A stretch of DNA of 64,000 bases from Desmodesmus armatus (taxonomy: Eukaryota; Chlorophyta; Chlorophyceae; Sphaeropleales; Scenedesmaceae): NCBI GenBank assembly GCA_007449985.2, contig VIIQ02000649.1, forward strand, positions 62,001-126,000, in the 5' to 3' direction. A program made the translations under genes and the position numbers. Shown in pieces: positions 1,281 through 43,053 of the stretch. Numbering within the stretch: the first letter of the stretch is position 1; each line of letters opens with the position of its first letter. Below the pieces are notes generated by a model that made no database searches, was not told where the DNA came from, and was given only the letters and a program-made list of their open reading frames with translations.

Positions 1281-1615
1281 TGCGAGACAGTGCCCGGAAC
1301 CGGGGAGGTAGCAAGATTTCCTGTGGAGACACTGGGAACACACAAAGATGGGAACACAGAACACAATGTAACTAGCACTGGGTCCCCCACCGCCACCCCA
1401 GGCAACGAAAGCCTAACAAAGCAACCTCACAGTACAATAGAAGGCGTCCAGACCAAAGCTGTGAGTCCAGCAGCCCCATCAAGCCTAGTAGGATTACCTG
1501 CAAGCAGCACCACCACCGCGCAGCCAGCGTCAGGAACAGCCCACCAGGATGCCAGGAAGGAACATGTAGGCACAAGGGGGGAGGGTGGGGGTCCTCCCCC
1601 ACCCCCAGCGTAGGC
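1281..1615 (+). repeat. Dispersed repeat, long copy 1
   Basis: About 335 bp, nearly identical to 51051-51384 with only a handful of substitutions. The core gagacagtgcccggaaccgg recurs at 1995 and 2254, and in reverse near 28860 and 29065. No open reading frame is shared meaningfully, so it is probably part of a non-autonomous transposon. Confidence 0.7.
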
Positions 1616-10451: not shown

Positions 10452-13400
10452 ATGCAGGAACGAGCCGTCCTGGCTGCTACTGCCCTCCTACTTGTGTGCC
10501 TAGCTCAGCATGCTCACAGCACGCTGGCGATCAGCAGTTCAACATGCCAGCAGTACAACACGAGCTCCAAGCGGGACCCCACCAAACTAAACGTCCATCT
10601 GGTACCCCACACCCACGACGATGCTGGCTGGCTGAAGACTTTCGACCAGTACTTCTGGGGTACTCGGCAGGACATACAGGTCTGGCCGTGTGCTGCAGTC
10701 ACAGGCCCTGGACAATGCAGGGGTTGCGCTGCTCCGGTGCATTTGCTAAAGGGTTCCCTGCCATCTGTCACTGGGTGGATGTGTGTCTATGATGCATTGT
10801 GGTTGCAGCAACGGAATACTTTTTGAGGGACACCTCGTCGTTTGTTCGTCTGAGCATTATGCCATTGCAGCAGCAGGCCATCAGCTACCTGTCTCTTCTA
10901 TATGATGGCGGGACTAGGATGCTGCAGCTTGTTTTTGCAGTCAACGTGTTGCTCAATGCAATGCTGCTACTAGCACGAATTGGCCTGCTGTTGTTGCCAC
11001 GCCACGCCACGTCGCGTTGTGCTGTGCCGTGCTATGTAGTGCCATTGGCATCCATGTGGCTCTATGTGTGACTGTATGTCGCCGTGTCTGCGTGCACTGT
11101 GTGTATGTGTTGCATGTGTTTCCCTGCAGGGTGCTTCAGTTCAGTATGTGCTGAGCACTGTGCTGCATGCACTCAAGGACAACCCAGACAGGAGATTCAG
11201 CTATGCAGAGATGGTGAGAAAGGCAGCACTCAATGCACCCACCGTGACACCTCTCGTCGACAGCTCGTGCAGAGACCTAGAGATAGCTGCACCTTTTAAT
11301 ATGGTCAATTACAACCTGACCGCCCAGCTGCATGCTGTGCCTCAGTCCTGCTTCGTGTGGATTGTGCACTCTCTATCGAGCAACAATCCCCTTGCGCACT
11401 GGCCTGCCTGTATGCTGCCACCCTATTCCCCCATGCCTTCATCACTCCCCAGACCTATGTTCCCTTCCTGTCCTCCCCCCCCCCCCCCCCCCAAACTTCA
11501 ACTTGCTAAATCTTTCACTCCTGCCACCTTCAAGCAAGTTGGCCCCCCTCTTTTCTTCAGTCCTTCTTCAGTGCTTGGTGGAGTCATCAATCACCCCAAG
11601 TGCAAGACAAAGTGCGACAGCTGGTGGCACAGGGGCGCCTGGACCTCACTGCCTCAGTGCTCACCTCCCCCCCCCCCCCCTATCTGCTACTAATGCATCT
11701 CCTGACCTACTCCCCTGCCTGCACACTGCCGCCCCCTCCCCCCCCCCCCCCTCCCCCCCCCCCCATTCCCTTCCTTCAGTCTTTTTTTAGTGCTTGGTGG
11801 AGTCGTCAGTCACCCCAGGTGCAAGATGAAGTGAGGCAACTGGTGACACAGGGGCGCCTGACCCCCCCCCTGGCACTTAGCTATCCCTCATCCAACCTCC
11901 CCTGACTCTCGCACCTGCCTGTACCCTGCCACTTGTCTCGCCCCCTGTCCCTCCCCCCCCCCCCCTTCCACCAGTCCTTTTCAGTGCTTGGTGGAACCGT
12001 CAGTCACCCTCGGTTCAAGATGAAGTGAGGCAACTGGTATCACAGGGGCGGCTGGACTTCATCAACGGGGGATGGGTGCAGCATGACGAGGCAGCAGCCC
12101 ACTACGCTGCAATGATCGACCAGACCACACGAGGACACAGGTGATAGGGTTTTGAAGGGGGGGGGCTGAGGTCAGGGGAGTGTGAGCGGAAAGGGAAGCT
12201 TCGTCAACGGCGGCTGGGTGCAGCAGTCAAGGCGGCCGCACACTATTCCGCAATGATTGACCACACCACACGCGGTCACAGGTGGCAAAGGGCTCTGCGT
12301 GTGGGGTGTGCGTGTGTAGGAAGGGGGGGGGGGGACGGCAGGGGCCCGGATGGCGGGGGGGGGGGGCGAGGGGGGAGGGGGCGTGTGAGGAGGGGGGGGG
12401 CGTCAATGGGGGCTGGAGGCAGCATGACAAGGCAGCTGCGCACTGCATGGCAGCTTCTGAACAGGCTAAATGCGGACACAGGTCAGAGGGGGAAATTCTG
12501 GCCGGGGGGGGGGGGGGGGGGGGCTCACCGATCCTCCCCCACCCCCCCTACCCCCCCCCCCCCCCACACACACACACACACGCGCACACACATGGGCAAG
12601 TCACACGTTTGCTGTCACTCACAGCGTGGCTGTTGCTGGGCTGCGGCTGCAGCACCTCTTGTTCAAGCCACCTGACTCACCCCCCCCCCCCCCTCAAACC
12701 CCCCCCCCCCCCCCGCCCCCACCCCACACCCCACCCCACCCCGCCCGTCGTTTCCCTGCAGGTTCTCAACAAGACGTTTGGTGTGACCCCGCGTGTGGGG
12801 TGGCAGATTGACCCGTTTGGCCACTCGTCCACTCAGGCCGCCCTGATGTCTGCTGCTGTGGGCTTTGAGGCACTCTTCTTGGCAGGGCTGACTACCAGGT
12901 GTGGCGATAAGGATGGACCACCCGGGGGGGGGGGGGGGGGGGGAGGGATCATGCACGGGGGGGGGGGGGGGGGGGCAAAGCACCAGGGGGGGGGGAGACT
13001 GGCTGGGGGAGGGGGGGGTACTATGGTGTGTGTGGGGGGGGGGGGGCACCCTGATGGCAGCTGCGGTGGGCTTTACGGTGTTGTTCTTTGGCAGGGCTGA
13101 CAACCAGGTGCGGCGATAAGGGTGGTCAACAGCCTGAGGGGTGGGGGACTATCCCGGCCCGGCGGGGGGGGGGGGGGTGACTATTACGGTGTGTGTGTGT
13201 GGGGGGGGGGGGGGGACACCGCCCTGATGGCTGCTGCTGTGGGATTCGAGGCTCTGTTCTTTGGCAGGGCTGACTACCAGGTGTGGCGACAAGGATGGAC
13301 GATGGGGGGGGGGGGCATCAAGGGGGGAGACTGTCGGGGGGGGGGGGGGGACTGTTACGGTGTGTGGGGTGGGGTGGGGGATGGGGGCTGATGGCTGCTG

Positions 13401-16400
13401 CTGTGGGCTTTCAGGGCTCTTCTTTGGACGGGCTGACTGCCAGGTGGGGTGATAGGCTTGTGTTAAGGGGGGGGGGTAGCAGGCGTAATACACAATACTT
13501 GTCATGAATAGGATGCGCATATAATGAACACATCATGACCACGATTCAAGATGAGAGTGTTGTGTGCCGTGTGTGTGCTGGTGTGTGCTGCAGGACATGC
13601 ATGTTCGTGCTGGCAAGAAGCAGCTGGAGTTCTGTGGAGGGCATCAGCGTCATGGGGGGAGTACGGCCAGGTGAGGGGGGAGGGGAGGGGGTAAAACCAA
13701 GGGGGGAGGGGTGAACAGGAGGGGGGGGGGGTGAACAAGAGGGTGACAGACGAGGGGAGGGGTAAGAGGAGAGGGTGAGTCAGATGCATTGCTGGTGCCT
13801 GTAACAGGGCCGTACCCGCAAAAAAATGCACGACAGATCTGCTCTAGAGACCTGCTGTGAGGTCTACAGGTCGTAGCAGTGCCTGATGTGTGATGATGTG
13901 TTGGCACCAGTAAGAGTCGCAGCACAGCCAGATGCTCAATGTTTACGTCAGTTCTGCCCCCCCCCCCCTTCCTCCCAGGTGTTTGCCCACAACTATCCAT
14001 CAGGCAACTACGGGCCCCCCACTGGGTTCAACTTCGACTGGGGCTCATGGGACGATCCCATCGTGGTGAGTTGAGGCTGGCTGGCTGCTGCATCACTCAT
14101 TCAGCTGGACAAACCTCCTTTTGTACCATGGATGTTCACGCTCAGCACCTTGGCCGGTGCACTGTAGAACCGACCACGTGGTCGGTTCTACAAGGGGTAC
14201 ACACCTTGCAGGGGGGGTGAGAATGAATCTCATGGGTACTGCACTCAGCTATAGAGCAAGTCCTAAGGAACAAGCTGCTATGCTTAAATGTGCAGCCATG
14301 CTCTAGTGTTTCCGCAATTGCAATAAACGTGTGCCCCGCTGCGCCCCTTGTCGGAAAGCTGATTTCGCGTTTTTTCGGGCCAAGCTGGCCCAGCACAGCC
14401 TGTCAGGATTTTGTCCTGTATCTCTGCAAGGCAGTGCTAGCGTGTGGTGTGTATCTGTGCTGTCTCCTGGCAGCACTGACTGAGTGTTGCTGCAGTGACA
14501 TTGCGCAGTCTCGCCCTGCACTGCGCTGCAGGGCCAAAGTGGGTTTCTGGGACCCTGTGTCACTAGTGTGACCTTCAGCATGCTGTATTGCCTGCTAGTC
14601 TCGCTCCGGGCTCACCTGCCCAGCCGATTCCGCTTGTAAGTGATGTTGTGAGTGCGAATGTGCTGCCAAATGCTGGCGCGCCCTTGCTTTTTTGTTCGTG
14701 GTCGGGTCACGTAACCGGTGTGCCTGTTTCTGGCACTCCTGGTGCCTCAGAAACCGCCCTGTGCTCAGCTTCGAGGGAACAGCCTGGCAGGGTCCGTGGG
14801 TTCGTGGGGTGAATGTGCGCAGTAAGTGCGATTAATCAAAGCAATGTTCGCTGCTGATGCTTGCGGCTGGCTGGGGTGACGTCGAGCAACAGCTGGAGAA
14901 ACATTCGCACCCCCCCTGTTGCATGCCTCAACATTGTTGTCCTGGCCAAAGTCAAAGTGTGCAATCTCTCTCTGGTGCACTTTCATGGTGCACCACATCG
15001 CCCCCTCCCCCTACACACACGCGCACGCACAGACGATTCCAGTACTCCAGAGTATAATGCTGCCCCTGCTTTCGTCCCATCTCCTCCCCCCCTCAGGATG
15101 ACCCCAGCAGTCCCGAGTACAACGTACCGGCCCGTGTGAATGCTTTTGTGTCTGCAGCGCATCTGTGGTCCGTCCAGATGGCTGGCAACGACGTGATGTT
15201 CATGATGGGAAGTGACTTCCAGTACGCCAATGCACACGCATGGTTCGTCAACCTGGACAGGTGCGATGCAGGGGGCGGGTGTTTTGAAAAAGGAATTCTG
15301 CCCCTGCACTCTATCGTACTGCACCTTACTGTACTGCAATGCACTGGACTGTGCTTGCTTGTACTGCACTGCAAGGTGCACCTTTGTGTCTGCAACTGCA
15401 GCTTGTGCTGTGTTGCTTGTGCCTCTGCACAGTACTGTTTTTCATGTGCTGTGTGCTCTGTGCTGCTGTTGTGTTGCAGGTTGATTCATTACGTGAATCT
15501 CGATGGCCGTGTGAACGTGCTGTACTCCACCCCCGCTGCTTATGTTGATGCCAAGGCGGCCTACAGTGACACAGCATGGCCTGTCAGAACGGACGACCTT
15601 TTCCCCTATGCTGACTGCCCCCATTGCTACTGGACAGGTACGTGTGGCACCGGGGGGGGGGGGGGGGGGAGTGGGGGGTGGGGGGGGGTGAGTGGCTTGG
15701 GTGCTGAGGCATACATCTGCACGCATGATGTATTGGGTTCCAACCCACGGTAAGGCGGTTATGTCGATGCCAAGGTGTCCAGTGATACAGCCTGGCCTGT
15801 GGAAATTGACATCTTCCCCTGTGCAGACAGCCCACACTGTTACTGGGCAGGTATGCGTGGTGTGTGTGTCGTGGTGGTAGGGGGGCGGGGGGCGGAGAGA
15901 ACACGTGCGCACAGCAGCGCATGCACATATTAGGATCGCATGCATGCCACCCATGCACGCTTCATGCCAATGCACAGCATGCAGGCAACTGCATCTGGAT
16001 GTGGCAAGCCAACTGTTCCGGTGATGCACTTGCTGCTTGCTGCTGGTTCTACTGCCTCCTCAGGCTACTTCACCAGTCGTCCAACCAGCAAGGGGTACAT
16101 CAGACACGCAACAGCATATCTTGCCGCTGCTCGACAGCTGCAGGCCCTGGTACCTACACCACCCCCTGCAACAACACAGCAGCAGCAGCATAGCAAGGAT
16201 GTGGCGGCTGCGCTCAACAGTGGCAGCAATGGTGGCGGCTGCAGTGGCAGCAGTGGCGGGGGCTGTGGTGGCAGCAATGGCAACGGCTGCAGTGGCAGCA
16301 GTGGCAGCAATGGCGGCTGCAGTGGCAGCAGTGGCGGCGGCTGCAGTGGCAGCAATGGCGGCAGCAGTCTTGATGCGCTTGAGGCTGCTGTGAGTCTGAC

Positions 16401-18088: not shown

Positions 18089-18155
<67 letters not shown>

Positions 18156-19997
18156 TAGCAGCAGCAGTAGCAGCGGCAGCGGCGCTCGTGGTGGTGATGA
18201 CGGGCTGGTTCCACGAAGCTGGCGGCTGCAGCAGCTGTTGCACTGGGCCTTGCAGAACCTACACTACTACTTGTTCCCAAGCACAGCCGCCAGTACCAGT
18301 ACCAGCAGCAGCAGAAGCAGCAGCAGCAGCAGTAGCAGCAGCGGCGGCTCGGTTGGGCTTCAGTTGGTGCAGTGCCCGCTGCTGAATGTGAGTGTGTGTG
18401 GCGCCACAGTGGCAGCAACTGCAGCAGCACCAGCAGACAGCCAGACTGCTATACGCAACCAAGGGCACCAAGCAGCAGCAGCAGCAGCAGCAGCAGTAGG
18501 TGGTGTCCATGAGGGTAAGGATCAGTCTCAGGGCCGTCATCGGTTGAGTAATCATGTAAGGCAGTTGAAGGTCAGTCCCAGCAGCAACAACAACCACCAA
18601 CACATCACCAACGCTGCCGCCAACCACCCTACCACCGTAAGCAGCAGCAGCACCAGCAGCAGGAGGAGTAACATCACTACTTCTTCAGCAGGAGCAGCAG
18701 GTGTGTCACACACAGATCTCACCAGCAGCAGCAGCAGCAGCAGCAGTGGTGGTCAGGCTGGTGTGTTGGTTGTGGCATACAACTCTCTGGGTGTGTCCCG
18801 TCAGGAGGTGGTGAGGGTGCCGGTCAGCCAACCGGCAGCAGCAGCAACCTACAGCGTGCAAGGTGGGTGGCGGTTGACAACAGCAGCAGCAGAATGCCAC
18901 AGCAGTGTGCGCTACATGTGGTACACTGACAGATCTGACCACCCAGTATCCAAATCTTGACACAGCACGGCATGGCACAGCGCAGCACACCACACATACT
19001 TCCTCACTACAGCGCACTTCACATCCTGGGTTCAGCACAGTCAGCACCTCTGGGAGGTTGGAACCTTGTCCCGCATACCTGTACTGTACTGAACCAACGT
19101 ATTGCGTGATTTGTCATTGCAGATGCTGATGGTACTGCTGTTCCCGCCCAGCTACTGCCTGTGAGCCCAGCCACGACAGCACTACAGCAAGGGCTCATGA
19201 CAGCAGGTGAGGTGAACACACCAACAGCCTTGCTTCGACGCTTGGGGGGGGGGGGGGGGGGGGAGTAAAGAGAAAGGGGGGGGGGGGGGAGGCAAGTGAG
19301 CCCAGCCACCACAGCACTGCAGCAAGGGCTCATGAGAGCAGGTGAGCCGACTCACCAGCCCGGCTCTGAAGCTTGCGGGGGGGAGAGGGGGAGGGGGGGG
19401 GGGGCGAGGGGGAGTGAGAAGGGAGGGGGAAGAAGTTGAGAAGGGGGGGGGGGAGGGGGGCAGGGGTGCAGCACTACACCAAGGTCTTATGAGCGCAGGT
19501 GAGGTGTAAGCTACCAACAGCCCTCTGAGATGCCTTGTTCGAAAGAATGTTGGGCCAGGGGGACTGCAGGCCATGTGATGGGGCGAGGAATGTTGGGAGA
19601 AAGGAGGGAGGGGTGCAGGGGCTGGCGTCACTCCCATCTGCTACAATATTGATAGACAACGCACAAGGCACAGCAACGGCACCTCCCCTTCCCTTCCCCC
19701 ATGATGCAGCACGTCTACATATAAAAAGCATGCAGCTGCTCTTCTTGCAATCAACAGTACTGCTGCTGCTGCTGCTACTGCTGCTGCTGCTGCTGTGGTG
19801 CCCTTGCCTGCAGGCCTTCTGTCAGACCCCTCAGCAGCAGCAAGCCATGAGCTGGCATTCACGGCTGACCTTCCCCCCTGGGCTATGCCACATACGCCCT
19901 CACAACCACAACCACTCCCCCAAGCACCAGCACAATCCATCCACCCCCCATACACCCCCCAGCACCAACATCCTCTGGCAAAACACCACTCAAACAT

Positions 19998-20032
<35 letters not shown>

Positions 20033-23000
20033 TACAGCAGCAGGTGGCCCATCTGTCCTTGACTCCCTGCAACCGCCTTCAAGCCCAACTTCAGCAGCAG
20101 CAGCAGGAGCAGCAGCAGCAACAGCAGCAGCAGCAGCGGCAGCAGCAGCGCCGCACCCTCAGGTTTCCAACGGTGTGTTAAACCTGACGCTGCATGCTGT
20201 CACTGGCCGGCTGCTGTCTGTGTCAGCAGCGGATGGCAGCTGGGTGATGCAGCTCACACAGGAGCTGATGTGCTACAGGAGCAGCACAGGAGACACACCA
20301 GCAGCAGCAGCAGCAGAAAACGGGCTTGAGTCACAGGTGGCGGCAGCAACGGCGGCGGCAGCCACCGGCAACCATGCAGCAGCAGAAGCAGCGGCAGCAG
20401 CAACAGCAGGGGTTCACAAACAATCAAGACCGGGCTGTACTGGTGGAGGCAGCAAGAGTGTTGGTGTTGGGTGTGGTGGTGATGGTGGTGAGTCTGATGG
20501 TGGTCAGAGTAGTGGGGCCTACATCTTCAGGCCTGATGGACAGACACAGGTGAGAGCAGCAGCAGCAGCAGCAGCAGCCACTGGCCCTGCTTTGCTGATA
20601 ACACAGACAAACTTTTGTGTTCTCCCTGCTGCTAGAGTGGGGTGGGGTGGGGTGGTGGGTGAGGACAGGGGGCATGAAGATGTGTGGGTGTGTGTGTGTG
20701 GGGGGGGGGGGGGGGGGCGCTGTGTTGGGCGTAATGGTGATGCTGTGTTGGGTGTGGTGATGGTGGTGAGTCTGATGGTGGTCAGAGTAGTGGGGCCTAC
20801 ATCTTCAGGCCTGATGGACAGACACAGGTGAGAGCAGCAGCAGCAGCAGCAGCAGCCACTGGCCCTGCTTTGCTGATAACACAGACAAACTTTTGTGTTC
20901 TCCCTGCTGCTAGAGTGGGGTGGGGTGGGGTGGTGGGTGAGGACAGGGGGCATGAAGATGTGTGGGTGTGTGTGTGTGGGGGGGGGGGGGGGGGGGCGCT
21001 GTGTTGGGCGTAATGGTGATGCTGTGTTGGGTGTGGTGATGGTGGTGAGTCTGATGGTGGTCAGAGCAGTGGGGCCTACATCTTCAGGCCTGATGGACAG
21101 ACACAGGTGAGAGCAGCAGCAGCAGCAGCAGCAGCCACTGGCCCTGCTTTGCTGATAACACAGACAAACTTTTGTGTTCTCCCTGCTGCTAGAGTGGGGT
21201 GGGGTGGGGTGGTGGGTGAGGACAGGGGGCATGAAGATGTGTGGGTGTGTGTGTGTGGGGGGGGGGGGGCGCTGTGTTGGGCGTAATGGTGATGCTGTGT
21301 TGGGTGTGGTGATGGTGGTGAGTCTGATGGTGGTCAGAGCAGTGGGGCCTACATCTTCAGGCCTGATGGACAGACACAGGTGAGAGCAGCAGCAGCAGCA
21401 GCAGCAGCCACTGGCCCTGCTTTGCTGATAACACAGACAAACTTTTGTGTTCTCCCTGCTGCTAGAGTGGGGTGGGGTGGGGTGGTGGGTGAGGACAGGG
21501 GGCATGAAGATGTGTGGGTGTGTATGTGTGTGTGTGGGGGGGGGGGGCGCTGTGTTGGGCGTAATGGTGATGCTGTGTTGGGTGTGGTGATGGTGGTGAG
21601 TCTGATGGTGGTCAGAGCATTGGGGCCTACATCTTCAGGCCTGATGGACAGACACAGGTGAGAGCAGCAGCAGCAGCAGCAGCAGCCACTGGCCCTGCTT
21701 TGCTGATAACACAGACAAACTTTTGTGTTCTCCCTGCTGCTAGAGTGGGGTGGGGTGGGGTGGTGGGTGAAGACAGGGGGCATGAAGATGTGGGGAGGGG
21801 GACCCGTTGTGGGCATGTTGGTGGTCATGTTAGTGTTGGTTGTGGTGGTGATGGTGAGCCTGATGGGGGCCAGGGCAGTGGGGCCTACATCTTCAGACCA
21901 GATGGACAGGCACAAGTGGGAGCAGCAGCAGCACCCCTCAGCAGCAGCAGTACACCTCTCCCATCCCTACCAATGCACTGCACATACGTGCTCTGCTGCC
22001 AGTGTTTGAGGGTGTCAGCAGACCCAACAGCGGGGTGAGAGCAGCAGCAGGCCAGTGACAGTTGTTTCCGTGTTACCCCCCCCCCCCCCACACACACACA
22101 CACACACATGCTGCTAGAGTGGGGCACTGGCTTCTCTTTGCTGAACATGCAAACATACTGTCGCCTCTCCCTGCTGGTAGTGTGGGTTGGGAAACCCTAA
22201 ACCCTAAACCCTAAACCCTAGTGGGACACACCACACACACCCCACCTGAGGCTACACACCCGGTACCTTCCCACAGCATGCACGGCAGCACATGCCTCAA
22301 CAGACCTGTCAAACCATTTCACACTTTGATGTTATCCTGTGTGTACCCTTGTCGCAGGGAGCCATCCCACTGCTGGCCCCAGATCAGCCTGCCAGCCTGC
22401 ACGGCAGCACGTACTCAACATATCCGTCACCACGTCACACTTTGCCGTTGGTGTGTAAGGCATTGAACTTGACTCACGCATCACTGTGTATGCTGTGTGT
22501 ACCCTTGCTGTAGGACGCCATCCCACTGCTGGCCCCAGATCAGGCTGTGTTACAGCCACACTGATCAAACCATGCCTCCCTCACACTTATCAGCCAATTT
22601 CCACCTTGCTGTTTGTGTGTGTATGCTTGTCGCAGGGAGCCATCCCGCTGTTGGCCCCAGATCAGCCTGTGTCAGTAACCGTCAGGTCAGGTCATGTGCT
22701 CACAGAGGTGGTTCAGGTGTGGAACAGCTGGGCAGCCCTCACCACACGACTGAGGGCAGGAGCCGATACCATCGAGCAGGTGAGGTATCTCCCTCTCCAC
22801 CCCCCCCCCCCTCCCCATTCCCATCAGGATCCCCCCTTCCCTCTCCCCCCCCCCTTCCCTCTTTGTCCCCCCCCCCCCCTGTGCTTACAGAGGTGGTCCA
22901 GGTGTGGAATAGCTGGGCAGCACTCACCACACGACTCAGGGCTGGGGCTGATACCATCGAGCAGGTAGGGTGGGTTGGTCCCGTAATGGAGGGGGGTGGA

Positions 23001-23194
23001 GGGCAGGGAGGGGTGTGCGTGGTTTGGGGGGGGGGGGGGGGCGAGAGGGAATAAGGGGGGTGGGCAGGGTTGGTGTGCCTTGACTGGAGAGCTTTGACAG
23101 AAGCCCCTGACCCAAGTACCAACATAGCCGTGGGGGTTGGGGTACTGTGATGGCATGTCTGGGTCAGTTGGACTTGTGCATATCACGGCACCGA

Positions 23195-23238
<44 letters not shown>

Positions 23239-31301: not shown

Positions 31302-31665
31302 GGGTGTGTGTCCCGCTCAGTGGCCTGCTGCTGTCACTGTGGTGGTGATGCTGCTGCTGTGGTGGTGATGGTACTGTTGGTGCTTGATTGAACAGGAGCA
31401 CACCACAAAAGGCATAGCACTACTTCGTGAGGGACAGGCACAATGCAACTTTCCGAGAGTGCCGTGCGAGAGGCTGGTGGCTGTGTATCAACAAAAAAAC
31501 GCTGCTTCTGCAATCCAAATGTGCACCAATAGCTTGTCTTCGTGCCAGTCTTTGCTCACTATCAGTAACCGCAACCGCAACCGTCGCCAGATCAAAGTGT
31601 ATATGAGTATAAGCCTGTGATTGCAGTCGCAGCTTCGCAGCTGTTGATTGTGGCAGACGAGCAAC
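31302..31665. promoter_or_regulatory. Bidirectional promoter between DUF1764 and histidyl-tRNA synthetase genes
   Basis: The two start codons are head to head, about 365 bp apart. The interval is less repetitive than the introns and contains both 5' untranslated regions. No defined element is recognised. Shared expression of the two genes is inference from spacing. Confidence 0.5.
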
Positions 31666-34600
31666 ATGTCACACACCAAGCCGCTCAATGTGGGTGGCAT
31701 TGGTGCCACCCCCAGCCTGGACGATGTGGTCAGTGTGGCTCGTGGGCATCTAATCGCCCTGGATTCAGCCGGAGCCGAGCGCATCAAGAAAGAGTCTCCC
31801 GCTCCAAAGTCCTTTCAGCCCGAGCCAGCCTCAGAGCAGCCCCCAGCTGTTGCAACTGAGAGCAGCAGCCAGGACCTGTTCCCCACATGCCTGACCCACA
31901 AGCAAGCAAGGGCCGTGCTCATAACGCGCCTGCTGACGCTTATGAACGGCAAAAGTGGCGTCAGGCTGCAGCTGGCAGACTTTCTCAAGGAGCTACTCAA
32001 CCATGACCTCGTCCCAACCCTGCCAGCAACAGACGATCAGTCAGTGCTAACTGCACTTGCCAACGCATGCAAGGGCGAGGGCAGCGCCAGCACGGCCCTA
32101 GCAGCAGCAGCAGCTCCTGGACAGCCGTTAGCAGCAGCAGCAGAGGCGGCTGGCATCAGCCTGCCAGGGCTCAGCACAGCAGAGCGTGCTGTGCTGACCA
32201 GCGGAGCATCCGCAGCAGCAGGAGTTGGGTCTCTGATGATTGTGGCAGGGCGCCAGCTGCTGACAGCAGTCACTGCTGTGTCTGCTTTGAGCTGCGAGGC
32301 AGCAGGTGCACAGGTGAGGGCCCTGCATCGTGATGTTTCACTAGACAGTGCTGTTGGGTGACTTGACTAGATGGTTGTGGCCAGCCAATTGTTGATCTAG
32401 ATGTGGATCTAGTAGTAAAGTGGGCTGTGGGGAACAGCCAGTGCAGGACACACAACAGCATGCAGCAGTCAGCACCAAGGCTGTGAGGGCCCTGCACCAC
32501 ACTGTACAAGTAGACACTGCTGTTGGGTGACTCTGACTAAGTTGTGTGTGGCCAGCCGTGGGTGGGGGGCGGGGGGGGGGGGGGGGGGGGGGGGTAGCTA
32601 TGAGACTAAGTCAGTGCTGTTTGAGGCACTCAGTAGCATGCAGCAGTCAGCAGTATGGCTGTGTGCTGTGCCAGGGGTCCTGCCTGCGTGTGCCGGCCGA
32701 TGTTGTGTGCGGGCAGCACACACAGGCAGGACCGCTGGCACCACACACAGCCATGCTGCCGACTGTTGCATGACACTGCGTATCACGATCGGGCACATGC
32801 CAATGCACAGCTTCCATGCAATCAAGCGTTAGCTGCCACCTTTTGAAGCGCCAAGTGGCCAGACTGCCTTATCTTTCCATGAAATAGCTCTTGCAGTTTG
32901 CAACGATTACGTCATCAGTAGCAGCCCAGCACAACTTACAGTTTGGCACATGTCCTGCAGGAGGTTGACATGGTCTAGGCTAGGGGCTGCAAGGGCGCCA
33001 TTGCAGCACTGCTCTTGCATAGAATCGTCATTGTAGTGCTCCTTACACCTCTCCGCACAGCAGCGGATGGCAAGCCTGTCCCCTCAGTAAATTCTTCCCG
33101 CCTCCTGGTCCTTTGTCCTGCAGGTCAAGTCGTTTGAGGCTGATGTAGTTGAGGCCCAAGGCTACAAGGGGGCTGTCACATCACTCTTGTTTGTCGTATT
33201 CGGAAGACTGCTTACACCCATGCCTTGCCTTGCCCCTTTCCTGTGCTCCTGGCACTTTGTCCTTTGTCCTGCAGGTCAAGTCATTTGAGGCTGATGTAGT
33301 GGAGGCCCAGGGCTACAAGGGAGCCATCGCAGCAGCAGACGAGCTAAAGGGCCTGTTGGAAGGCAGCAAGGCAGCAGGCACACGCAAAGGGCTCAGCGCA
33401 GAGCAGCAGGCAGCGTACAGCAGCCTCCCACAGGTGCTGGGTGCAGTATCAGATGCGCTGGGCACTGTATACAGCGCTGTGCGGCCTGAGGTGCAGAGTG
33501 CAGCACTACCAGTCAAGGTAAGCGGTGTGGTGTTTGCTCCCTCCTGCAAGGGACCCTCCCCAGCAGTCCCATCTTGGCCCCAGCATTGTAGAATGCGATC
33601 CACACCCTCTGACCTCCACCCCCACCCCTCGCTACACAACCAGTCTTAGCCTTGTGTTCTGGTGCACAAAGAGGACAGCACAACAACCACCGAACCTTTG
33701 CTGCTGCTGCTGCTATGCTGCTGCTGCTGCGCTGTGTCGGCCCCACCCATTCTGGCCGGTTCACAGGCTGGTGCCATCCCCCCAGCTGCCAGTCCCACCC
33801 TGGCACCAGCACTCCTCGACGCCGCCCACACCCTCCTGTGCCTAGCACACAGCTGCCTCACACGCATTCAAGCTTATCGCTGTGTCTGTGACCCTTGCTA
33901 ATGCTGCTGCTGTCCGCTGTGTCTGTCCCGCCCATCCTGCCGACCGGCCCTGTCCTGCCCCCCCCCCCCCCCACCCACCGCCACCACCACCATACACACA
34001 CAGCTTGGCGCCATCCCCCCGGCTGCCAGCCCCACCCTAGCCCCAGCTCTTTTGGACGCCGCCCACACCCTCCTGCGCCTAACACACAGCTGCCTCACAC
34101 GCAGCCATTCTTTGCCCTGCATATGCAAAAAAAAACGGCCCATGACACCCACCGAAACCCTGCTGCTGATGAGGCTTCTGCTACCTGCTGTGTCTACCCC
34201 GCCCGTCTCCCCCCCACCGCCCTCCCACCCTCCACACACACAGGCTGGCTCCATGCCCCCAGCTGCCAGCCCACCCTAGCCCCCGCTCTTTTGGACGCCG
34301 CCCACACCCTCCTGCGCCTAGCCCACAGCTGCCTCACACGCAGCCATCCTTAGCCCTGTGCTTGTACACACAACAGAACGACACAACAGTCCCCTGAACC
34401 CTTGCTAATGCAGCTGCTGCCCGCTGTGTGTCTGCCCTGTCTCCCCCCCCCCACCCCCCCACCCCCACACACACACACACACAGGCTGGCTCCATCCCCC
34501 CAGCTGCCAGCCCCACCCTGGCCCAGCACTCCTCGACGCCGCCCACACCCTCCTGCGCCTCGCCCACAGCTGCCTCACACGCAGCCAGGCCATAGCAGCA

Positions 34601-37600
34601 GCAGCATGCCCCGCAGCCGCCCCCCAGCTACAGCAGCTGGCAGCAGCAGCAGCCGCCGGGCCCGTGGCAGCAGCGCAGCAGCAGTTGGCAGCAGTGGGGG
34701 TGCAGATGTTGGGTGCTGGTGGGGGCGTGGTTGGTGGGGGTGCGCTGGAGCTGCGTGCTGCACTTGCGGCCGAGGCGTCACTGCAGGCGCTGCAGCAGAC
34801 GGCAGCGGTGGAGGGCCTCGCTGCTGTGGTGTCACTCAGACTGCAGGAGGTGAGCTCAAGTGTCAGTTGGGGGGGGGGTGACAGGTGAAGCACATTGATG
34901 GAGCACATGCCTGTATCGTGAGGTTTGTTTTGACCGCGTACACTTGCCTTGCAGGCCCAACAGCCGGTTGCAGAATGCATCTGGTGTCACAAACGCAGTT
35001 GTTGCTGTCCAACCGACGCTGAACAACCCTCCTGCTGAGTTGCAACCCTGCCGACTGCTTTCTGTTCAACAGGGCCCCAGCAACAGCACAGCTGTAGAAT
35101 GCATCTGGTGTCCACACACAGCTTTTGCTATGAACCAACCCTGAACAACCCTTCTGCTGTTCTGCACCCCCTGCCCACTGCTTCCTGTTCTGACAGGGCC
35201 CCGCAGCGCCTGAGGCAGCAGACGCCCCCGCAGCAGCAGCAGCAGCTGCCCAGGAGGATGCCGGCAAGAAAAAGGACAAAAAGAAAGACAAGAAGGGCGC
35301 GGCAGGTCTAATCCTTGGCAAGGGTACTGCCATTGTCAGGGCACACCTTGAAAAAGCACTGGCAGCAGCAGCAGCAGCAGCAGCAGGAGGAGGTGGTGGT
35401 GATACTGCTGCAGCAGCAGGTAGTACCTTGGGTGTGGCAGAGGGGCAGCTGGAGGGTGCGGAGGTGCTGCTGGGTGGTGCTGCTGGTGTTGTGGCGGTTG
35501 AGGGCGTTATAACGTCACATGAGGCTGCTGCTGTGAAGATGCTGGAGGATGTGAGGGTGGTGGTGGAAGCGAACCAAGCTCGACGCAAGCCCAAGGTGGG
35601 TAGTTTTCAGTATTTATTGAAGGAACTTTTAGCCTAATAGCTTGCCGGGACGTGTGTTGCATGTATGGGTGTGTGTTGAGGGGTTGGAAGGAGGGGCAAC
35701 CATGTGGTTTCGAAGGGGTGGAGGCAAACCCAGCTTGACGCAAGCCTAAGGTGCGCTGACATTGATTTTGCAAATTGATTTTGCAAATTGAGTTTACAAT
35801 ATTGTAGCCTGACTGTAGGTCGAGGTGTGCAATGTCTGTAAGTGTGTGTCCCTTGGGGGGGGGGGGGAGGGGCGACAGGGGGTGTCGGTGGTGGTGGAGG
35901 CAAACCAGGCACGACGCAAACCTAAGGTGGGCGGGCGGCCCAGATGGTGATGATTTCAACAAACGTGCATATGAATAGGCCTACTTTGTTGCATGCGCAA
36001 GGGTTTAGGGTTCAAGGTCCTAAATCTCCCCTGGTTTTTCCTACTGATACCCTGGAACTGAATGTTGCTCTCCCCGGATTTCATATGGTGCTGTCGTAAA
36101 CAGTCGCAGGTGGTCCCGAATCGCTGTCAGGCATGTCGCCAAGGGCGTGCGCGACCTCCTGTACCTGAGCCGTGCATGCACATGAGCTGTGCTGACCGAG
36201 AACCTCACGTCCATGTGCTGTCGGGTGCACCTGAATTGCTGTCACGCAGGTTGCCAAGGGCGCGTGTGCCTTCCTGCCTGATCAGCAGTACCACTCATAC
36301 GCACAAAAGGGAACAGCTGTCTCAGCCTGGTTGTCTTTTGTTTGACGCAGGTTGCCAAGGGTGCGCGTGACTTCCTGCCTGATCAGATGGCCATTCGTGA
36401 AAAGGCGTTTGAGACAATCACATCCGTGTTCAAGCGCCACGGCGCGGTTGCGATCGACACACCGTGTTTGAGCTGCGTGAGACACTGATGGGCAAGTATG
36501 GGGAGGACTCCAAGCTCATCTACGACCTAGCAGACCAGGTGTGTGGGGGGGGGGGGCAACTGCTTCTGGTGTGGTGAGGAGGAACAAATCAGAGGGGGGT
36601 GCAGCATCTGCATTATGCGAAACCTTGCCGATCAGGTGGTTTGGGGTTGGGCAGGGGTTGGGAAGGAATGAGGGTGGGTGGGTGGGTGAAAGGGTCATCC
36701 GCATGCCCGTGTTTGAGCTGTGCGAGACACTGATGGGCAAGTATGGGGAGGACTCAAAGCTGATTTACGATCTGGCGGACCAGGTGCGGGGTCGTGCGGT
36801 GTGATGGGATATGTGGCTGCCGGCGCAAAGGAGGGTTCCAGCATTGACCCAGAAATGGGGTTGCTCACCAGCTTTCCATGCGGCTCGGCTCATGGCAAAC
36901 CCGGAACGGGGAACGTGCCGGCACATGCTGACCGCATTGTTGGTGCATCAGACACACAACGTCTGCACATCACTCACTGGACGAAGGCATGTGTGACTGC
37001 TGAACATCATGTTGCTGTTTGACAAGCATCTGCTGAATGTTTTGTGTGTAGGGTGGTGAGCTGTTGAGCCTGCGGTACGACCTGACGGTGCCCATTGCCA
37101 TGCAGATGATGCAACTGTAATCTGTGCGCTGCTCCCAGCATCCGCCGCCTGACCTGAGGCCGCCCGCCGCATCGCTGCGCAAGCACCCCCTCCCCCTCAT
37201 TGCCCCATCGGGCTGGCTACTGCAGCCCAACATAAATATGGAGCGGATTGTCAGCATGTGTTGCTGATACCTTGTCAACTGCGTGTGATGCACCCTGCAG
37301 GGTGGTGAGCTGTTGAGCCTGCGGTACGACTTGACGGTGCCGTTTGCGCGCTACGTGGCTGTCAACGCCATCGGCAACATCAAGCGCTACCACATAGGCA
37401 AGGTGTACCGCAGGGACCAGCCACAGCTCACACGCGGACGATTCAGGTGGGAGGGGGGCGGGCTGTGTGTGCAGGGGGGGCGGGGAAGGGGGGGGTGTTC
37501 CGTGGAGGGGTTGTTGACTCTGCAAGTTGCTAATGTGTGTGTAGGGGGGTGGGGGGGGTCAGGACGTGCGCTGCAGCCGCCAGTGCTAGGGCTTGGGTGT

Positions 37601-37698
37601 AAGTAGGAATGCTTGGTTGGGAAGGAACCTATCTTGCCCAACCAAGCATCCCCAGCCACACTCAAGCCCCCGGCACTGGGCTGCAGTGCACTTCCTGA

Positions 37699-37729
<31 letters not shown>

Positions 37730-40700
37730 ACACATACATTAGCGAAAAGAGTTTTCAGTCAGGGGGCGGGCGTGAGCTTGCATGCATGCACACGTGCACA
37801 TCGCCGCACAACTGCGCTCGTTGGTCAGCCGGGTTGCTGTGAGACGTGTCCCTTCTAGGGCTGATGAGGTGGGAGCCATCCTGTGGGCAGGGCCATACCC
37901 TTGAACCAAGCATGCTGTCTCCATTGTGTTTGCAAGGCATTGAGTCTACGTGTGTCATGTGCTGCTGCAGGGAGTTTTTCCAGTGTGACTTTGACATTGC
38001 TGGCAGCTACGCCGCCATGGTGCCTGATGCCGAGGTGCTCAAAGTGCTCGTGGAGATACTATCAGGTGGGTGGTATCTATAACCACCGTTGTATCGTTTG
38101 GACAGGTTGCGGGTGTAAAATCACAGGGTCATACCCTGTATTTATCAACTATAAAGTCCCGGTGATGCAGGCAGCAAGGAAAGCAGCCGGCAATCGTCGG
38201 CCAGCTAGCAGCATGCAGGATGTGGCAAGGGGTTTTTGAGTTCCTTATTCAACATTTTGGCCCACTGCTACGTCCACACATATGCACAACTCAGTGTGTC
38301 GATATGCTCGCACACATCCCATCATCTGCCACACCATCACTCCCGAATGCCACAATCTCAACTGAAACACACTGTGTGCTGCCTGCAGACCTTCAGCTGG
38401 GGAAGTTCACTGTGAAGTTGAACCACAGGCGTCTGCTGGATGCCATGCTGGCCATTGCTGGAGTGCCCGCACAGAAGTTCAGGCCCATCTGCAGGTCAGT
38501 ACACTGTCCGCTTTTCGACCATGCAGTACAGCACTGCTGAGTACAGTGCAGTACTGTAGAGTACATTGCAGTGCAGCACAGTGCAGTACATTGCAGAACA
38601 GTCATACATACAGTACTGAGGAACAAATCGCCAGGGCTGGCTGGGTGCCTGTGCTGTACTGTACTGCTGTATCTCAACATGCCCACTACTGTATCGTAAT
38701 GCAATTTGAGCGCCCTGTCACTGCGTTTTTTTTTGTGAATGTGTGCTGCTGGCTGCTGCAGTGCTATCGAAAAGCTTGACAAGGAACTCTGGAGCAACAC
38801 ACTAGTTTGAAACTCACACTAGACTGTATCATGATCCTAGCAATCTTTGACTGCTGCTGGATGGCTGCTGGGTGTGCATCTGCTGCAGTGCCATTGACAA
38901 GCTGGACAAGGAGCCGTGGGATGTGGTGCGCGCTGAGATGGTTGAGGAGAAGGGACTGCCGGGAGACGTGGCAGACACCATTGGTCAGTTCGTGGTGCTT
39001 AAGTGAGTGGGGGGGGGGGGGTTGGGGGGGGGGGGGGGAGGCTGGGCACGCAAAGCTCAAGGATGGGTTTCTTGAGCTTGCAACATCTGACGGTTTTGAA
39101 ATTCAGGTTTGAACTCTGCGTCAGTGTGTGTTAGCACAGGGATTACTTGAGTAGCTAGCATACTATGGACATGCAAGTCACAGTCATGTGTGTGTGTGGG
39201 GGGGGGGTGATGATTTGACTCGAAAAGGGTCAGAGGCGTCACAGACCCAACACAGGCTCAGAAGCAGGTGTCTGAAAGCTGTGGCATACACCTGATTAGG
39301 ACTTGAGGGCGTGTATCTTCAGGCAGGCAGGCTGCTGTGTTCTGTACATGATTTACTGTAAGAGGGGTCATGTCTTTGTTGGGTGACGCTGTCTTTGTTT
39401 ATGTGTGTCGTGAGCTTCCGTATGCTGTGTCATGCTGTGCTGTGCTGCGTCCCCAGGGATGAGCCCCGCGTTTACAGTTGGGGACCTTGTGTCTGTGTGT
39501 CTGTCTTGATTTTGTGCTGTGTCGTGCTGTGCTGTGCTGTGCTGTGCTGTGTCCCCCAGGGATGAGCCCCGCAAGCTGCTGGCTGTGCTGACTGCTGCTG
39601 ACCACCCCCTGGCGCAGCATGCTGACTCAGCAGCAGCACTACAGGAGCTGGGCCTGCTGTTTGACTACCTGGAGGTGAGCATAATACAGTGCAGTAGTTG
39701 GTGACAGAGTCCCACTTTGGCGCTAGCCAGCGAGCCAGGGGCTCATGAGGGTGCCCAGGGGGCCTACTAACGTACGCGAGTCTCTCAGGTCATGTGTGAG
39801 GGCGAGCGGAATCACCCAAGGGTAAGGGGGTGCAGTACAGTGCAGAACAGTACATCGCAGTGCCATGCAGTGTAGTACAGTGCAGCATTATACAGCATGC
39901 TGACTCAGCAGCAGCACTGCAGGAGCTGGGCCTGCTGTTTGACTACCTGGAGGTGAGGGGGGAGTACAGTGCAGTACAGCACTATGCATCCCCGTACAGT
40001 GCAGTGAAGTGAAGTGAAGTACAGTGCAGTGCAGGAACATGCAGTGCAGTGCAACTCTTGATATCACCGTAAAGTGCAGAGCAGCAGAGCGCCTTGCCAG
40101 ACAGTACACAGTACAGCACCCTGCCTGACACTCCCCCCACCCACCCACCCAAACTCACACACATATTGATCCCGTGTCCTGTGTGTGTCCCCTCAGGCCT
40201 TCAATGCCCTTGGTCCCATCACTTTGACCTAAGCCTGGTGCGCCCCCTCCCCCCATCAGCTTTGCTTGACCCTTGATCCCCCATGTGTGTCTCCCCCCCC
40301 CCCCCCCAGGCCTTCAATGCCCTTGGTCCCATAAGCTTTGACCTGAGCCTGGCGCGTGGCCTGGACTACTACACGGGAGTCATCTATGAGGCAGTGCTGG
40401 AGGGGGGCAACGTGGGATCCATCGCAGCAGGTGTGTGTTGTGGTTGTTTGGGGGGGGGGGGAAGATGTGTAGCAGTGCTCGGCAACCTGTTTTGGGAGGA
40501 GGGTTGCCTGCATTCCTACCTGTGATGCCTTCAGGCGGCGTGGGGATGGAAGAGGGGGAGGTTGCAGCATGTTTGTAGCTGTGCATGGTGTCGTCCTAGA
40601 GGCAGTGCTGGAGGGAGGCAACGTGGGATCCATTGCAGCAGGTGGGGGTGGGAATTTGGAGTGGACGGAGTGGGAGGGGCACTGCGGGATGGTTGATGGG

Positions 40701-43053
40701 GGTCGATGGAGGGGGAAGTAGGACCTAAGGGGCGGGGGGGGGGGGAGCAGGCAGGGGGACAGTGTTTGCGGAGGCACCATTGCGGCAGGATGGAGCGTAA
40801 GAGAAAGGAACGGGCAGTGTTGTGGACCGGCAAGTTCAACCCATGCTACCACTTTGCAAATAATGACACATTCTCCTCCACCCCCCCCCCCCCTGCGTCA
40901 TCCTGCACAGGTGGTCGCTATGACAAGTTGGTGGGCATGTTCAGCGGCAAAGATGTGCTGGCAGTGGGTGTCACCATCGGCATTGAGCGCGTGTTTGCCA
41001 TTGCGGAGGCCCAGGCACGGGCTTGCGCAGTGTTTGTATGGAATCACCATCACTCACCCACCACGCAAATCTTTACCCCTTGTTGCCATTTTTGAAATAA
41101 TGTTTACCCCCCCCCCCCCCAATCCTGCACAGGTGGTCGCTATGATAAGCTAGTGGGCATGTTCAGTGGCAAGGACGTTCCCGCAGTGGGCGTCTCCATC
41201 GGTATTGAGCGCGTGTTTGCCATAGCCGAGGCTCAGGCACGCGCACGCGCAGCAGAGAGCGGCACAGCCATCCGTGCTACAGAGACGCAGGTGCTGGTCT
41301 CATCCATCGGCAACAACATGCAGGTGGGCGCTTTGGCGGGGGGGGGGGGGAGGTGAACAGGCTCAAAGACAGCCATGCATGTGAGAAATGGCTCCCTTGC
41401 GGGAATTGTGTCATCGACGTCTGTGCTGTACCGTGCATGTGCCATGGCGCTGTCCTGCTGCAACTGCACGGCATCAGAAAGTGCCACACAGGCCGCCTTT
41501 GAGAGGTGCTGATGCCCACATCCAAGCCTGTACGCGACTAATACATCTCATCAAACACACCTGGCCTGCATACTTGAAGCGCATGCAGCTGGCAAACAAG
41601 CTGCGGGCAGCTTTCCACCTGGAGCTGATGCCTGTACATTGCTGGTTTGGCTTTCAGACCCGCGTACACCTGTTCTTAATCGTCCCTGTCCACCTGCGCA
41701 GATCAAGCGCATGCAGCTGGCCAACAGGCTGTGGGCGTCAGGCATCAAGGCTGAGTTTGGGTTCAAGCCCAACCCCAAGATGGGAGACCAGTTGGGCTAT
41801 GCGCTGGATCAGGGCATACCCTTCATGGTGCTGTTTGGAGACGACGAGCTGCAGCAGGGGGTGGTCAAGGTGGGTGGGTCGTGGGTGTGATATGGGGAGG
41901 AGGGGGGGGGGGGGGGGAGTTGCCACACGTTTTTTTCCTTACTGTTAGACTGTGCCCTGCTTGCCTGTGTTTCTGTCGGCACAGCTGTTTGGGGTGTTGG
42001 AATCAGCTAGTGCACAGTGCATCAACAGCTGCACTCCAAGGGCGCGCGGATGAAGGACACTGCAGCTAGCGCTGCAGCAGGGGGTGGTCAAGGTGGGTAG
42101 GGTAGGGTGGGGTAGGGTGGGCGGTTGTACACTAGGTGGGCAGTGACATCGTGGGTGGGTGGTGGGCTATGCATTGGATCAGGGCATCCCCTTCATGGTG
42201 CTCTTGGGGGACGATGAGCTGCAGCAGGGGGTGGTCAAGGTGGGGAGGGGGGGGTTCGAGGGCGAGGGGGGTGGGGGGGACAGGACGGTGGGCAGTGACA
42301 TTGTGGGTGACCAGCTGGGCTATGCTTTGGATCAGGGCATTTCCTTCATGGTGCTGTTTAGGGACGATGAGCTGCAGCAGGGGGTGGTCAAGGTGGGTGG
42401 GGGGTGGGTTTGAGGGTAGGGGTGAGGTAGGGCGGGGTAGGGTGGGGGGTTGTACACTAGGTGTGTAGTGACATTGTGGGTGGGTGGTGGGCTATGCAGT
42501 GGAGCAGGGTATTCTCTCCATAGTGCTGTTTGTGGCTGACGAGCTGCAGCAGGGGGTGGTCAAGGTGGGTGGGGATGGGTACTTCTGGTGGATAGTCACG
42601 ATGTGGACGGGTGGGGGGACACCCTGCTTTGTTTTGTCCCTTTGTTGGAAGGCACAGCGCTTCCATTCTTCTTATGTGGCTGGCACACTGCTGCCCGTCC
42701 ACCCCTGTTGGGCGTTGGCAGCTGTTGTCAGCCTGACAGACTGGCAGACACGCCGGTGCAGGGCTCCCACCCTGGATAAGGCTGGGCTTGCCGCATCACA
42801 TTGCAGCTCTTGAAAATTTGGTGCCAGATTGGAATGAAATGAAATGAAATAACGCATTACATCCGCACTCGTGCTGCTGCTGCTGCTGCTGCTGCAGGTG
42901 AAGGACATGGCAGCCAAGACTGAGCAGACGGTGTCAGTGGACTCCTTGGTGGACGAACTCAAGCGGCTGCTCAGCGCAACACGACCAGCAGCAGCAGCTG
43001 ACGGTGCAGCTGCTGACGGTGCAGCTGCTGAGATGGCCCAGCTGAGTGTTTGA
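31666..43053 (+). CDS. Histidyl-tRNA synthetase, plant/algal type with long N-terminal extension
   Basis: It charges tRNA-His. The start is [11 protein letters not shown] at 31666. Exons: 31666-32313, 33275-33517, 34485-34849, 35197-35595, 36351-36538, 37301-37446, 37971-38065, 38389-38494, 38889-39002, 39560-39674, 40310-40430, 41133-41323, 41702-41869, 42898-43053, about 1018 residues. The first four exons form an alpha-helical Ala-rich extension ending in a Lys-rich stretch ([12 protein letters not shown]) before the catalytic core [10 protein letters not shown]. Motif 2 is split over two exons (GRFR / [13 protein letters not shown]). The HisRS signature is ARGLDYYTG, motif 3 is [11 protein letters not shown], and the anticodon-binding domain carries [10 protein letters not shown] and [13 protein letters not shown]. 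No transit peptide is obvious, so the cytosolic enzyme is likely. Two exons (34485 and 36351) each lack one base. Nearly every exon has truncated tandem copies nearby. Confidence 0.95.
32314..33274 (+). repeat. HisRS intron 1 with tandem intron repeats and a truncated copy of exon 2
   Basis: The donor-proximal block gtgagggccctgca...ctgttgggtgac is repeated at about 32314 and 32486. 33125-33170 repeats the start of exon 2 ([16 protein letters not shown]) before diverging. A long G-run lies at 32571-32594. Confidence 0.7.
33755..34350 (+). repeat. Three truncated upstream copies of HisRS exon 3
   Basis: Copies at about 33766, 34008 and 34243 encode (A/G)-G-(A/S)-[12 protein letters not shown] and [17 protein letters not shown], each preceded by C-runs and followed by a diverging tail. 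The fourth copy (34485-34849) is full length but has lost one base where the first two keep it. Confidence 0.85.
34970..35196 (+). repeat. Intronic tandem repeats before HisRS exon 4
   Basis: The block gtagaatgcatctggtgtc and the following gaacaacccttctgctg segment recur about every 115 bp (near 34973, 35092 and, in part, 35150). Confidence 0.6.
36085..36300 (+). repeat. Two truncated copies of HisRS exon 5 start
   Basis: VAKGVRDLL and [12 protein letters not shown], near 36130 and 36250, precede the full exon at 36351. Divergence shows they are not under the same constraint. Confidence 0.7.
36703..36785 (+). repeat. Downstream partial copy of HisRS exon 5
   Basis: It repeats [25 protein letters not shown] with an Arg-to-Cys change and its own donor. 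This copy keeps the GTG that the main exon has lost at about 36465. Confidence 0.8.
37052..37098 (+). repeat. Truncated upstream copy of HisRS exon 6
   Basis: It repeats [14 protein letters not shown] after TGTAG and then diverges. The full exon is 37301-37446. Confidence 0.8.
37540..37722. repeat. Long imperfect inverted repeat in a HisRS intron
   Basis: Left arm about 37540-37625 and right arm about 37635-37722 share a 13-bp perfect inner stem (atgcttggttggg), plus gggcttg, gcagtg and tcaggac blocks, with a G-run on the outer left facing a C-run on the outer right. It would fold into a roughly 80-bp hairpin in the pre-mRNA. Confidence 0.75.
38762..38810 (+). repeat. Truncated upstream copy of HisRS exon 9
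   Basis: It reads [11 protein letters not shown] after CTGCTGCAG and then diverges. The intact exon at 38889 reads [11 protein letters not shown]. Confidence 0.75.
39455..39957 (+). repeat. Partial copies flanking HisRS exon 10
   Basis: 39455-39475 repeats the exon start (DEPR). 39896-39955 repeats the exon end ([19 protein letters not shown]) with its donor. The intact exon 39560-39674 lies between, the arrangement expected from overlapping tandem duplications. Much of 39820-40090 is acagtgcagt simple repeat. Confidence 0.75.
40196..40640 (+). repeat. Partial copies flanking HisRS exon 11
   Basis: 40197-40235 repeats AFNALGPI upstream. 40597-40640 repeats [15 protein letters not shown] downstream. 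The intact exon is 40310-40430. Confidence 0.75.
40912..41030 (+). repeat. Near-complete upstream duplicate of HisRS exon 12
   Basis: It reads [16 protein letters not shown] and [15 protein letters not shown], matching 41133-41250, with few changes (VLAVGVT against VPAVGVS). It lacks the following ESGTAI...NNMQ part and runs into intron. It shares the motif 3 sequence, so mutually exclusive use is conceivable but would lose the exon end. Confidence 0.75.
41570..42570 (+). repeat. Partial copies of HisRS exon 13 around the intact exon
   Basis: [11 protein letters not shown] near 41578 is an upstream start copy. The end [22 protein letters not shown] recurs at about 42165-42239, 42316-42392 and 42490-42565, each followed by G-rich intron. 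The intact exon is 41702-41869. Confidence 0.85.

Follow-up and report, generated by a model that had tools for sequence, protein, structure and literature searches.

How do introns come to hold truncated copies of the exon ends beside them, and why do such copies stay similar to the exons? The question is raised by a stretch of 64,000 nucleotides (bases 62001-126000 of an 805-kb contig, hereafter the window), for which an earlier note made from the sequence alone had described pervasive small tandem duplications. The window was compared with itself, its modelled exons were scanned against their flanks, and the genome (115.8 Mb, 831 contigs) was searched.

Exon models for an alpha-mannosidase and a cytosolic HisRS were obtained by spliced alignment to relatives. 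The top-scoring named relative of the mannosidase is from Scenedesmus sp. NREL 46B-D3 (70% across 39% of the query), and the named green-algal relatives of HisRS (69-73%) include, among others, those of Dunaliella, Monoraphidium, Haematococcus and Chlorella. Judged by these relatives of the two predicted proteins, the source is a green alga. Cytosolic HisRS appears to be single-copy, with 12 of 13 genome matches located here and the remaining one weak (29%). Nineteen mannosidase and 11 HisRS exons entered the scans, some mannosidase segments having been joined manually beforehand. About six apparent single-base deletions lie in conserved exons of the two genes (36351-36538; 11975-12140; two in 12762-12898; 13594-13670; 19814-20054); four were reported by the aligner and two come from reading the sequence, and several sit in short homopolymers. 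As HisRS is apparently single-copy, these deletions are likelier to be assembly indels than signs of decay, and they indicate an imperfect base accuracy.

Several other features accompany the two genes. A frame with similarity to PF00221 (aromatic amino acid lyase; 31648-32361, 2e-16) lies immediately 5' of HisRS, possibly within the gene. A mannosidase intron contains a dispersed element with a length of about 710 bp (14209-14919, 74-99% identity); about 40 other sites were scored among 173 candidates, and in contig C436 the element is satellite-like and recurs about every 1.5 kb. Another dispersed repeat occupies three sites in the window (1279-1615, 28808-29089 on the minus strand, and 51049-51385), with copies at most 98% identical. 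Four AAACCCT telomere-type repeats (22192-22219) in a mannosidase intron, just 3' of a 278-bp array, are possibly a trace of break repair; runs of at least three such units were absent from loci L017-L029.

Truncated exon copies and their polarity

Self-comparison of the window yielded 51 direct versus 2 inverted repeat pairs within 1 kb outside low-complexity sequence, which confirms that the local direct repeats described earlier are real; one Markov-resampled control window gave no pair. The short direct repeats are dense over 0-50 kb and sparse over 50-64 kb. In the two modelled genes, each exon plus 120 bp was scanned against 1.5 kb on either side, with a reverse-complement control. This resulted in 40 rows, of which 21 pair the end of an exon with a copy in its flank, 3 show the contrary polarity and 16 are exon-internal. 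All 21 follow the same rule: copies of the acceptor and the 5' part of an exon lie upstream, and copies of the 3' part and the donor lie downstream. The 3 contrary and 16 internal rows, judged by reading the sequence, are all CAG/CTG or similar repeats. The control produced 13 rows, the best of which (45.4 bits) is exceeded by 18 of the 21 polarity rows and likewise by several of the CAG/CTG-type rows (up to 69.7 bits). With higher sensitivity, two further upstream copies, both short, were found (Table 1). Thus, a polarity that had been attributed to most copies holds for all of them outside low-complexity repeats.

At least one copy accompanies 6 of the 19 mannosidase exons and 8 of the 11 HisRS exons (together 14 of 30), and in the N-terminal HisRS region at least two further exons (33259 and 34480; frames read from the sequence) have copies. 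This amounts to at least 16 affected exons in the part of the window for which at least 20 had been claimed; about 20 are reached with an exon of an MFS gene and two to three possible exons at 47.9-49.6 kb, which lie beyond that part and were read by eye. Among the genes named at the time, alpha-mannosidase, HisRS and the MFS gene (Pfam Sugar_tr above the cut-off in one of two frames) were recovered, whereas an FG-GAP gene was not confirmed in the frames scanned and a RIQ-like gene was not identified.

In their adjacency and direct orientation, the copies agree with splice-junction-spanning internal tandem duplication. The proposal of the earlier note that breakpoints of tandem duplications fell within exons is supported by the direct orientation, by the polarity and by recent arrays of exon plus intron (20464-21948 in the window; 1506-2182 in locus L026). 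The polarity is no independent evidence on mechanism or driver, since it is forced by geometry once one breakpoint of a tandem unit lies in an exon.

The splice dinucleotide is intact in 31 of the 32 window copies. A whole-exon copy with both acceptor and donor was found neither among the scan rows nor in the mannosidase, HisRS or HSP70 genes. If units of these lengths were placed at random, about 17% of those that touch an exon boundary would include a whole exon, and the probability of zero among 18 such units is 0.03; without conditioning on boundary contact it is 0.29 and therefore unremarkable. The absence of whole-exon copies is weakly consistent with a loss of those copies that would otherwise enter the mRNA. 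Since every copy is without its acceptor or its donor side, the copies would hardly form the reservoir of alternative exons for which they had been taken, at least not of ready ones. Pairs confined to introns are rare (mannosidase, 1 of 23; HisRS, 1 of 22; E 1e-2), whereas about half (9.5 of 18) would be predicted from random placement, but the fast decay of intron parts makes this comparison unfair, and the claim that duplications target exons was therefore dropped.

Table 1. Exons, truncated exon copies and tandem arrays in the window
Feature	Position	Strand	Remark
Alpha-mannosidase exon 3, full extent	11975..12140	+	apparent one-base deletion near start
Two upstream copies, acceptor and 5' part of exon 3	11543-11648, 11760-11860	+	
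Two downstream copies, 3' part of exon 3 and donor	12199-12306, 12403-12511	+	
Mannosidase exon 4	12762..12898	+	spliced alignment
Three downstream copies, 3' part of exon 4 and donor	13049..13476 (13049, 13219, 13388)	+	
Downstream copy, 3' part and donor of mannosidase exon 8 (15480-15637)	15759..15899	+	
Two downstream copies, 3' part and donor of mannosidase exon 12 (19123-19206)	19296..19522	+	
Recent tandem array, 278-bp unit x 4.8	20464..21948	+	end of exon ending 20549, donor and intron
Two upstream copies, acceptor and 5' part of mannosidase exon 14 (22636-22779)	22291..22550	+	
Downstream copy, 3' part of exon 14 and donor	22880..22971	+	all 8 coding differences at codon position 3
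Upstream copy, 5' part of exon at 33259, N-terminal HisRS region	33108..33173	+	frames read
Tandem array, 241-bp unit x 3.5	33762..34587	+	final unit continues into coding sequence; frames read
Two downstream copies, HisRS exon ending 35595	35717..35931	+	
Upstream copy, acceptor and 5' part of HisRS exon 36351-36538	36236..36285	+	weaker one at 36131-36168
Downstream copy, 3' part and donor of HisRS exon 36351-36538	36707..36791	+	flanking intron without homology
Upstream copy, acceptor and 5' part of HisRS exon 37301-37446	37047..37098	+	
Upstream copy, HisRS exon 38889-39002	38753..38785	+	more sensitive pass
Upstream copy, HisRS exon 39560-39674	39423..39469	+	
Downstream copy, HisRS exon 39560-39674	39893..39976	+	
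Upstream copy, HisRS exon 40310-40430	40189..40242	+	
Downstream copy, HisRS exon 40310-40430	40587..40659	+	
Upstream copy, HisRS exon 41133-41323	40880..41030	+	
Upstream copy, HisRS exon 41702-41869	41577..41608	+	more sensitive pass
Four downstream copies, HisRS exon 41702-41869	42071..42580 (42071, 42163, 42304, 42488)	+	
Upstream (higher coordinate) copy, 5' part of MFS exon (matching part 54922-55041)	55164..55283	-	

Other loci and the association with G/C runs

In three HSP70 genes (C692, C566 and C450; 14 exons), which were picked because a family search had already revealed copies in them, the same scan gave 22 rows, 11 of them upstream acceptor-side and 11 downstream donor-side copies. 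The polarity is obeyed in 22 of 22, and there are no contrary, internal, whole-exon or reverse-complement rows. In the family search itself, 9 of 82 HSP70 hits overlap a longer hit by at least 20 profile positions at these three loci, with the same polarity as judged from their order. Overlaps of this size otherwise number one for HSP70 (C548), 2 of 72 hits for Cpn60 (C571, C625), 0 of 15 for HSP90, 0 of 38 for tRNA-synt_1 and five among the matches listed for kinesin (153 hits). Inspection of the sequences at these eight overlaps outside the three HSP70 loci revealed no duplicated DNA, and the overlap at C571 turned out to be an ordinary exon pair; the inspection covered overlaps of at least 20 profile positions, and family searches miss short copies (3 copies among 12 hits in the case of HisRS). 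In nine 10-kb stretches on other contigs, the local repeat pairs number 1-23 (median 2) and are all direct. The copies are thus locus-specific and dense at particular loci only, and the word pervasive, under which they had been introduced, is true of such loci alone: searches with Cpn60, HSP90, tRNA-synt_1 and kinesin gave no copy.

The paralogs C692 and C450 each have a downstream copy cut at nearly the same codon. These long copies are 95-97% like their own exon and 74-81% like the exon or long copy of the other gene, and a second, shorter copy in C450 is only 63-68% alike to all of them over the compared stretch. This pattern hints at old copies under concerted evolution; the shared truncation point may be due to chance.

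Locus L024 (C340:50001-60000) contains an old tandem array (3581-9917) with units of about 250 bp and mostly 64-79% identity. It has 48 G/C runs (C on the plus strand) in 10 kb, and the array is without a clearly recognisable exon.

G/C runs had been suggested to drive the duplications. Of 32 copies, 8 have a run of at least 8 no more than 25 nt away from their truncated end, compared to 11.5% of the affected-intron positions. Duplication coverage correlates with G/C runs outside the duplications (rho 0.35, p 0.004; 66 bins at the 2.5-kb scale) in a data set with three loci included because of their duplications; for the random stretches alone, its correlation with all G/C runs is not significant (rho 0.19, p 0.27). 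G/C runs are therefore a weak correlate and at most one factor.

Homology at the splice junction and codon positions of differences

The extent of homology around the junction was compared in 54 exon-copy pairs (34 donor and 20 acceptor, 32 of them in the window), which were chosen to span the exon part and the junction, some junctions being off register by a few bases. The 30 exon bases adjoining the junction have a mean identity of 0.89. In intron bases 7-66, homology (z>=3) is present in 15 of the 54 pairs and absent (z<2) in 35; among the 30 pairs with an exon identity of at least 0.9, it is absent in 20 and present in 9. When the whole intervening intron was searched for 28 window copies, 13 gave p<0.05 past the first 10 nt. 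Accordingly, the earlier description of the duplicated segments as exon plus intron fits some of the copies only. In the HSP70 gene of locus L026, a recent unit that carries intron (1506-1892 versus 1795-2182) is 89% alike; its intervening intron is common to the first two units, but not to the sequence after the last copy, and has only short repeat-like matches elsewhere in the genome. Elsewhere, homology stops at the junction although the exon parts are 96-98% alike (736-843/1075-1182 in L028; 2573/2812 in L026). Between nonfunctional copies that belong to the same array, differences affect 166 of 1265 sites (13%) in the exon-like parts, with 5 gap blocks, and 323 of 1463 sites (22%) in the intron parts, with 166 gap blocks, the latter figures reflecting mere forced alignment where introns are unrelated.

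Mismatches between exons and copies at codon positions 1/2/3 number 55/38/138 for all 32 window copies, 52/37/129 without the near-identical array and 44/27/127 for 30 gap-free pairs from the window and the HSP70 loci. In the last set, the third-position share is 0.641 (127/198), with a confidence interval of 0.556-0.732 from a bootstrap over 19 exons. In simulations with a neutral copy and an adjoining exon restricted to synonymous changes, the shares were 0.47-0.52 under six mutation settings, and a constraint of about 50% on the copy yields 0.64. For exons with at least two copies (13 groups), unique changes are distributed 3/3/16 in the copy closest to the exon (p 0.0002 versus one third), 29/21/37 in older copies (p 0.046) and 4/6/14 in the exon itself; like the other codon-position results, these are small numbers with a shared exon history, from analyses picked after viewing the data. 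Young copies differ from their exons mainly as coding sequences do, and older ones more like neutral DNA. The distribution in the closest copies requires either donor alleles or constraint on the copies.

Both the third-position lean and the frequent end of homology at the junction exceed what duplication and neutral decay alone would produce. An explanation by plain tandem duplications and neutral decay only, with introns scrambled fast by indels in G/C runs or microsatellites, is thus doubtful. Fast indel turnover explains part of the junction-bounded homology, as the many gaps in the intron parts of recognisable arrays and their near absence from exon-like parts indicate; furthermore, the unique changes of older copies are closer to even, if still departing from one third, and differences at positions 1 and 2 could be the copies' own neutral changes. 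However, the observed third-position share and its interval lie above the simulated range, the closest copies depart strongly from one third, and unrelated intron flanks copies that are 94-98% identical, also where the intron is not of low complexity.

Origin of the copies and relation to known systems

The reading favoured here, with a probability of about 0.5, is that the copies stem from old junction-spanning tandem duplications, the exon part of which has been re-copied from the functional exon or from another allele. Duplications of about 100-300 bp across one splice junction, with one exonic and one intronic breakpoint, would leave one full exon and a truncated piece on its intron side (acceptor and 5' part upstream, or 3' part and donor downstream). 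A piece with one splice site would presumably not be recognised as an exon, would be removed with the intron and could therefore be tolerated; whole-exon copies would enter the mRNA. Units would afterwards expand to arrays. The intron part of a unit would lose its similarity quickly, largely via indels, and the exon part would remain similar, since local gene conversion or template switching would from time to time overwrite it with the sequence of the functional exon or of another allele's exon. Tandem duplication explains the direct orientation, the polarity and the recent arrays, and re-copying would explain the persisting similarity. Two observations stand against this reading: a third-position lean is not expected from exon-copy conversion alone, yet 127 of 198 differences are at this position, and the end of homology at the junction in copies that are 96-98% alike is sharper than gradual decay predicts.

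Both would follow if a break in an exon were repaired by invasion of the other haplotype's exon, with copying past the junction into its intron and closure by end joining. Such an interhomolog repair, which implies one junction from each haplotype, jointly predicts breakpoints in exons, the polarity, coding-biased differences from birth and unrelated introns with genuine splice sites. It is nevertheless rather improbable, as a second HisRS haplotype was not found in the assembly, synonymous divergence between alleles would have to be roughly 5-10% or more with allelic introns that cannot be aligned, and several copies per exon demand repeated events.

Selection could also keep the copies as decoy or alternative splice ends or as partly translated exon pieces, which would agree with the retained splice dinucleotides, the third-position lean and the few gaps in exon-like parts. 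At the low divergence of the copies, however, about 6 dinucleotide losses in 55 are expected by estimate and about 2 are seen, so that their retention is not clearly selected; the truncated copies are without a second splice site, and with 77 of 198 differences nonsynonymous, constraint is far from complete. Selection of this kind is therefore very unlikely. Recursive splicing at exon starts with AG|GT was rejected, since only some exons fit. An assembly artefact, by haplotype stutter or false duplication at G/C runs that are hard to sequence, could draw on the apparent single-base deletions and on the co-occurrence of duplications with G/C runs, but is hardly credible for copies that differ by 2-30%, number up to four per exon side, are of different ages and occur on several contigs, and overlapping contig ends would not account for the intron homology having been lost.

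Tandem duplication and re-copying, the favoured reading, can be compared with several known systems. Tandem duplication of whole exons yields mutually exclusive exons; the algal copies are likewise tandem copies of exon sequence inside a gene, but they are truncated and none has both splice sites. Internal gene duplication and AGGT-type intron creation were reportedly treated by Rogers in 1989, Gao and Lynch in 2009 and Hellsten in 2011. Small internal tandem duplications with a fate set by splice sites are common to that model and to the alga, but where affected introns were compared, their lengths differ from the duplication period: for example, HisRS intron 36539-37300 has 762 bp with periods of 245 and 249, and HisRS intron 40431-41132 has 702 with a period of 211, the full exon reading through the duplicated part. 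An AGGT-flanked exonic unit was not noticed at truncated starts. Intron gain at the duplications was discarded after an unsystematic check by eye, which included HisRS exon 36351-36538 and mannosidase exons 12 and 14 and showed no in-frame donor/acceptor pair joining the upstream exon part to the downstream copy.

The closest of the cases compared is a potato gene, in which a tandem duplication over an intron-exon boundary created a new intron (Ma, Lan, Niu 2016, PMC4974935). Its unit spans the 3' side of an intron and the 5' side of an exon and leaves truncated exonic sequence within an intron, as in the alga; unlike there, the spliced models of the alga need no new intron, an exon remains complete beside its copies, and the duplications affect several exons of a gene on both sides. 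With introner elements, as portrayed in PMC9860276, the algal copies share the new intronic sequence with functional-looking splice sites. An origin of the intervening introns from introners or mobile elements was rejected after two intervening intron stretches had been searched, one of which has no match elsewhere and the other short repeat-like matches only. In the open-access literature searched, there was no report of truncated exon ends as dense as these in the introns of an alga. Events of this kind are already known; their density is unusual here, and the changes in the copies go beyond what simple decay fully explains.

Truncated copies that have good splice sites will lead gene finders astray during annotation. 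If the pattern is general in this lineage, it would provide a dense natural record of how introns, by virtue of splicing, can take up duplicated parts of exons, and with copies of different ages beside one exon, the rate of duplication, the turnover of introns and the re-copying from exon to intron would become directly measurable. It is also conceivable, albeit unlikely, that in some genes the exon ends embedded in introns are not inert: they are junction-bounded, keep their splice sites and have such differences from the exon as about half its coding constraint would leave, which would follow if the exons of other haplotypes repeatedly overwrote them or if their splice sites were in use. If so, introns would hold a stock of spare exon ends that is constantly renewed.
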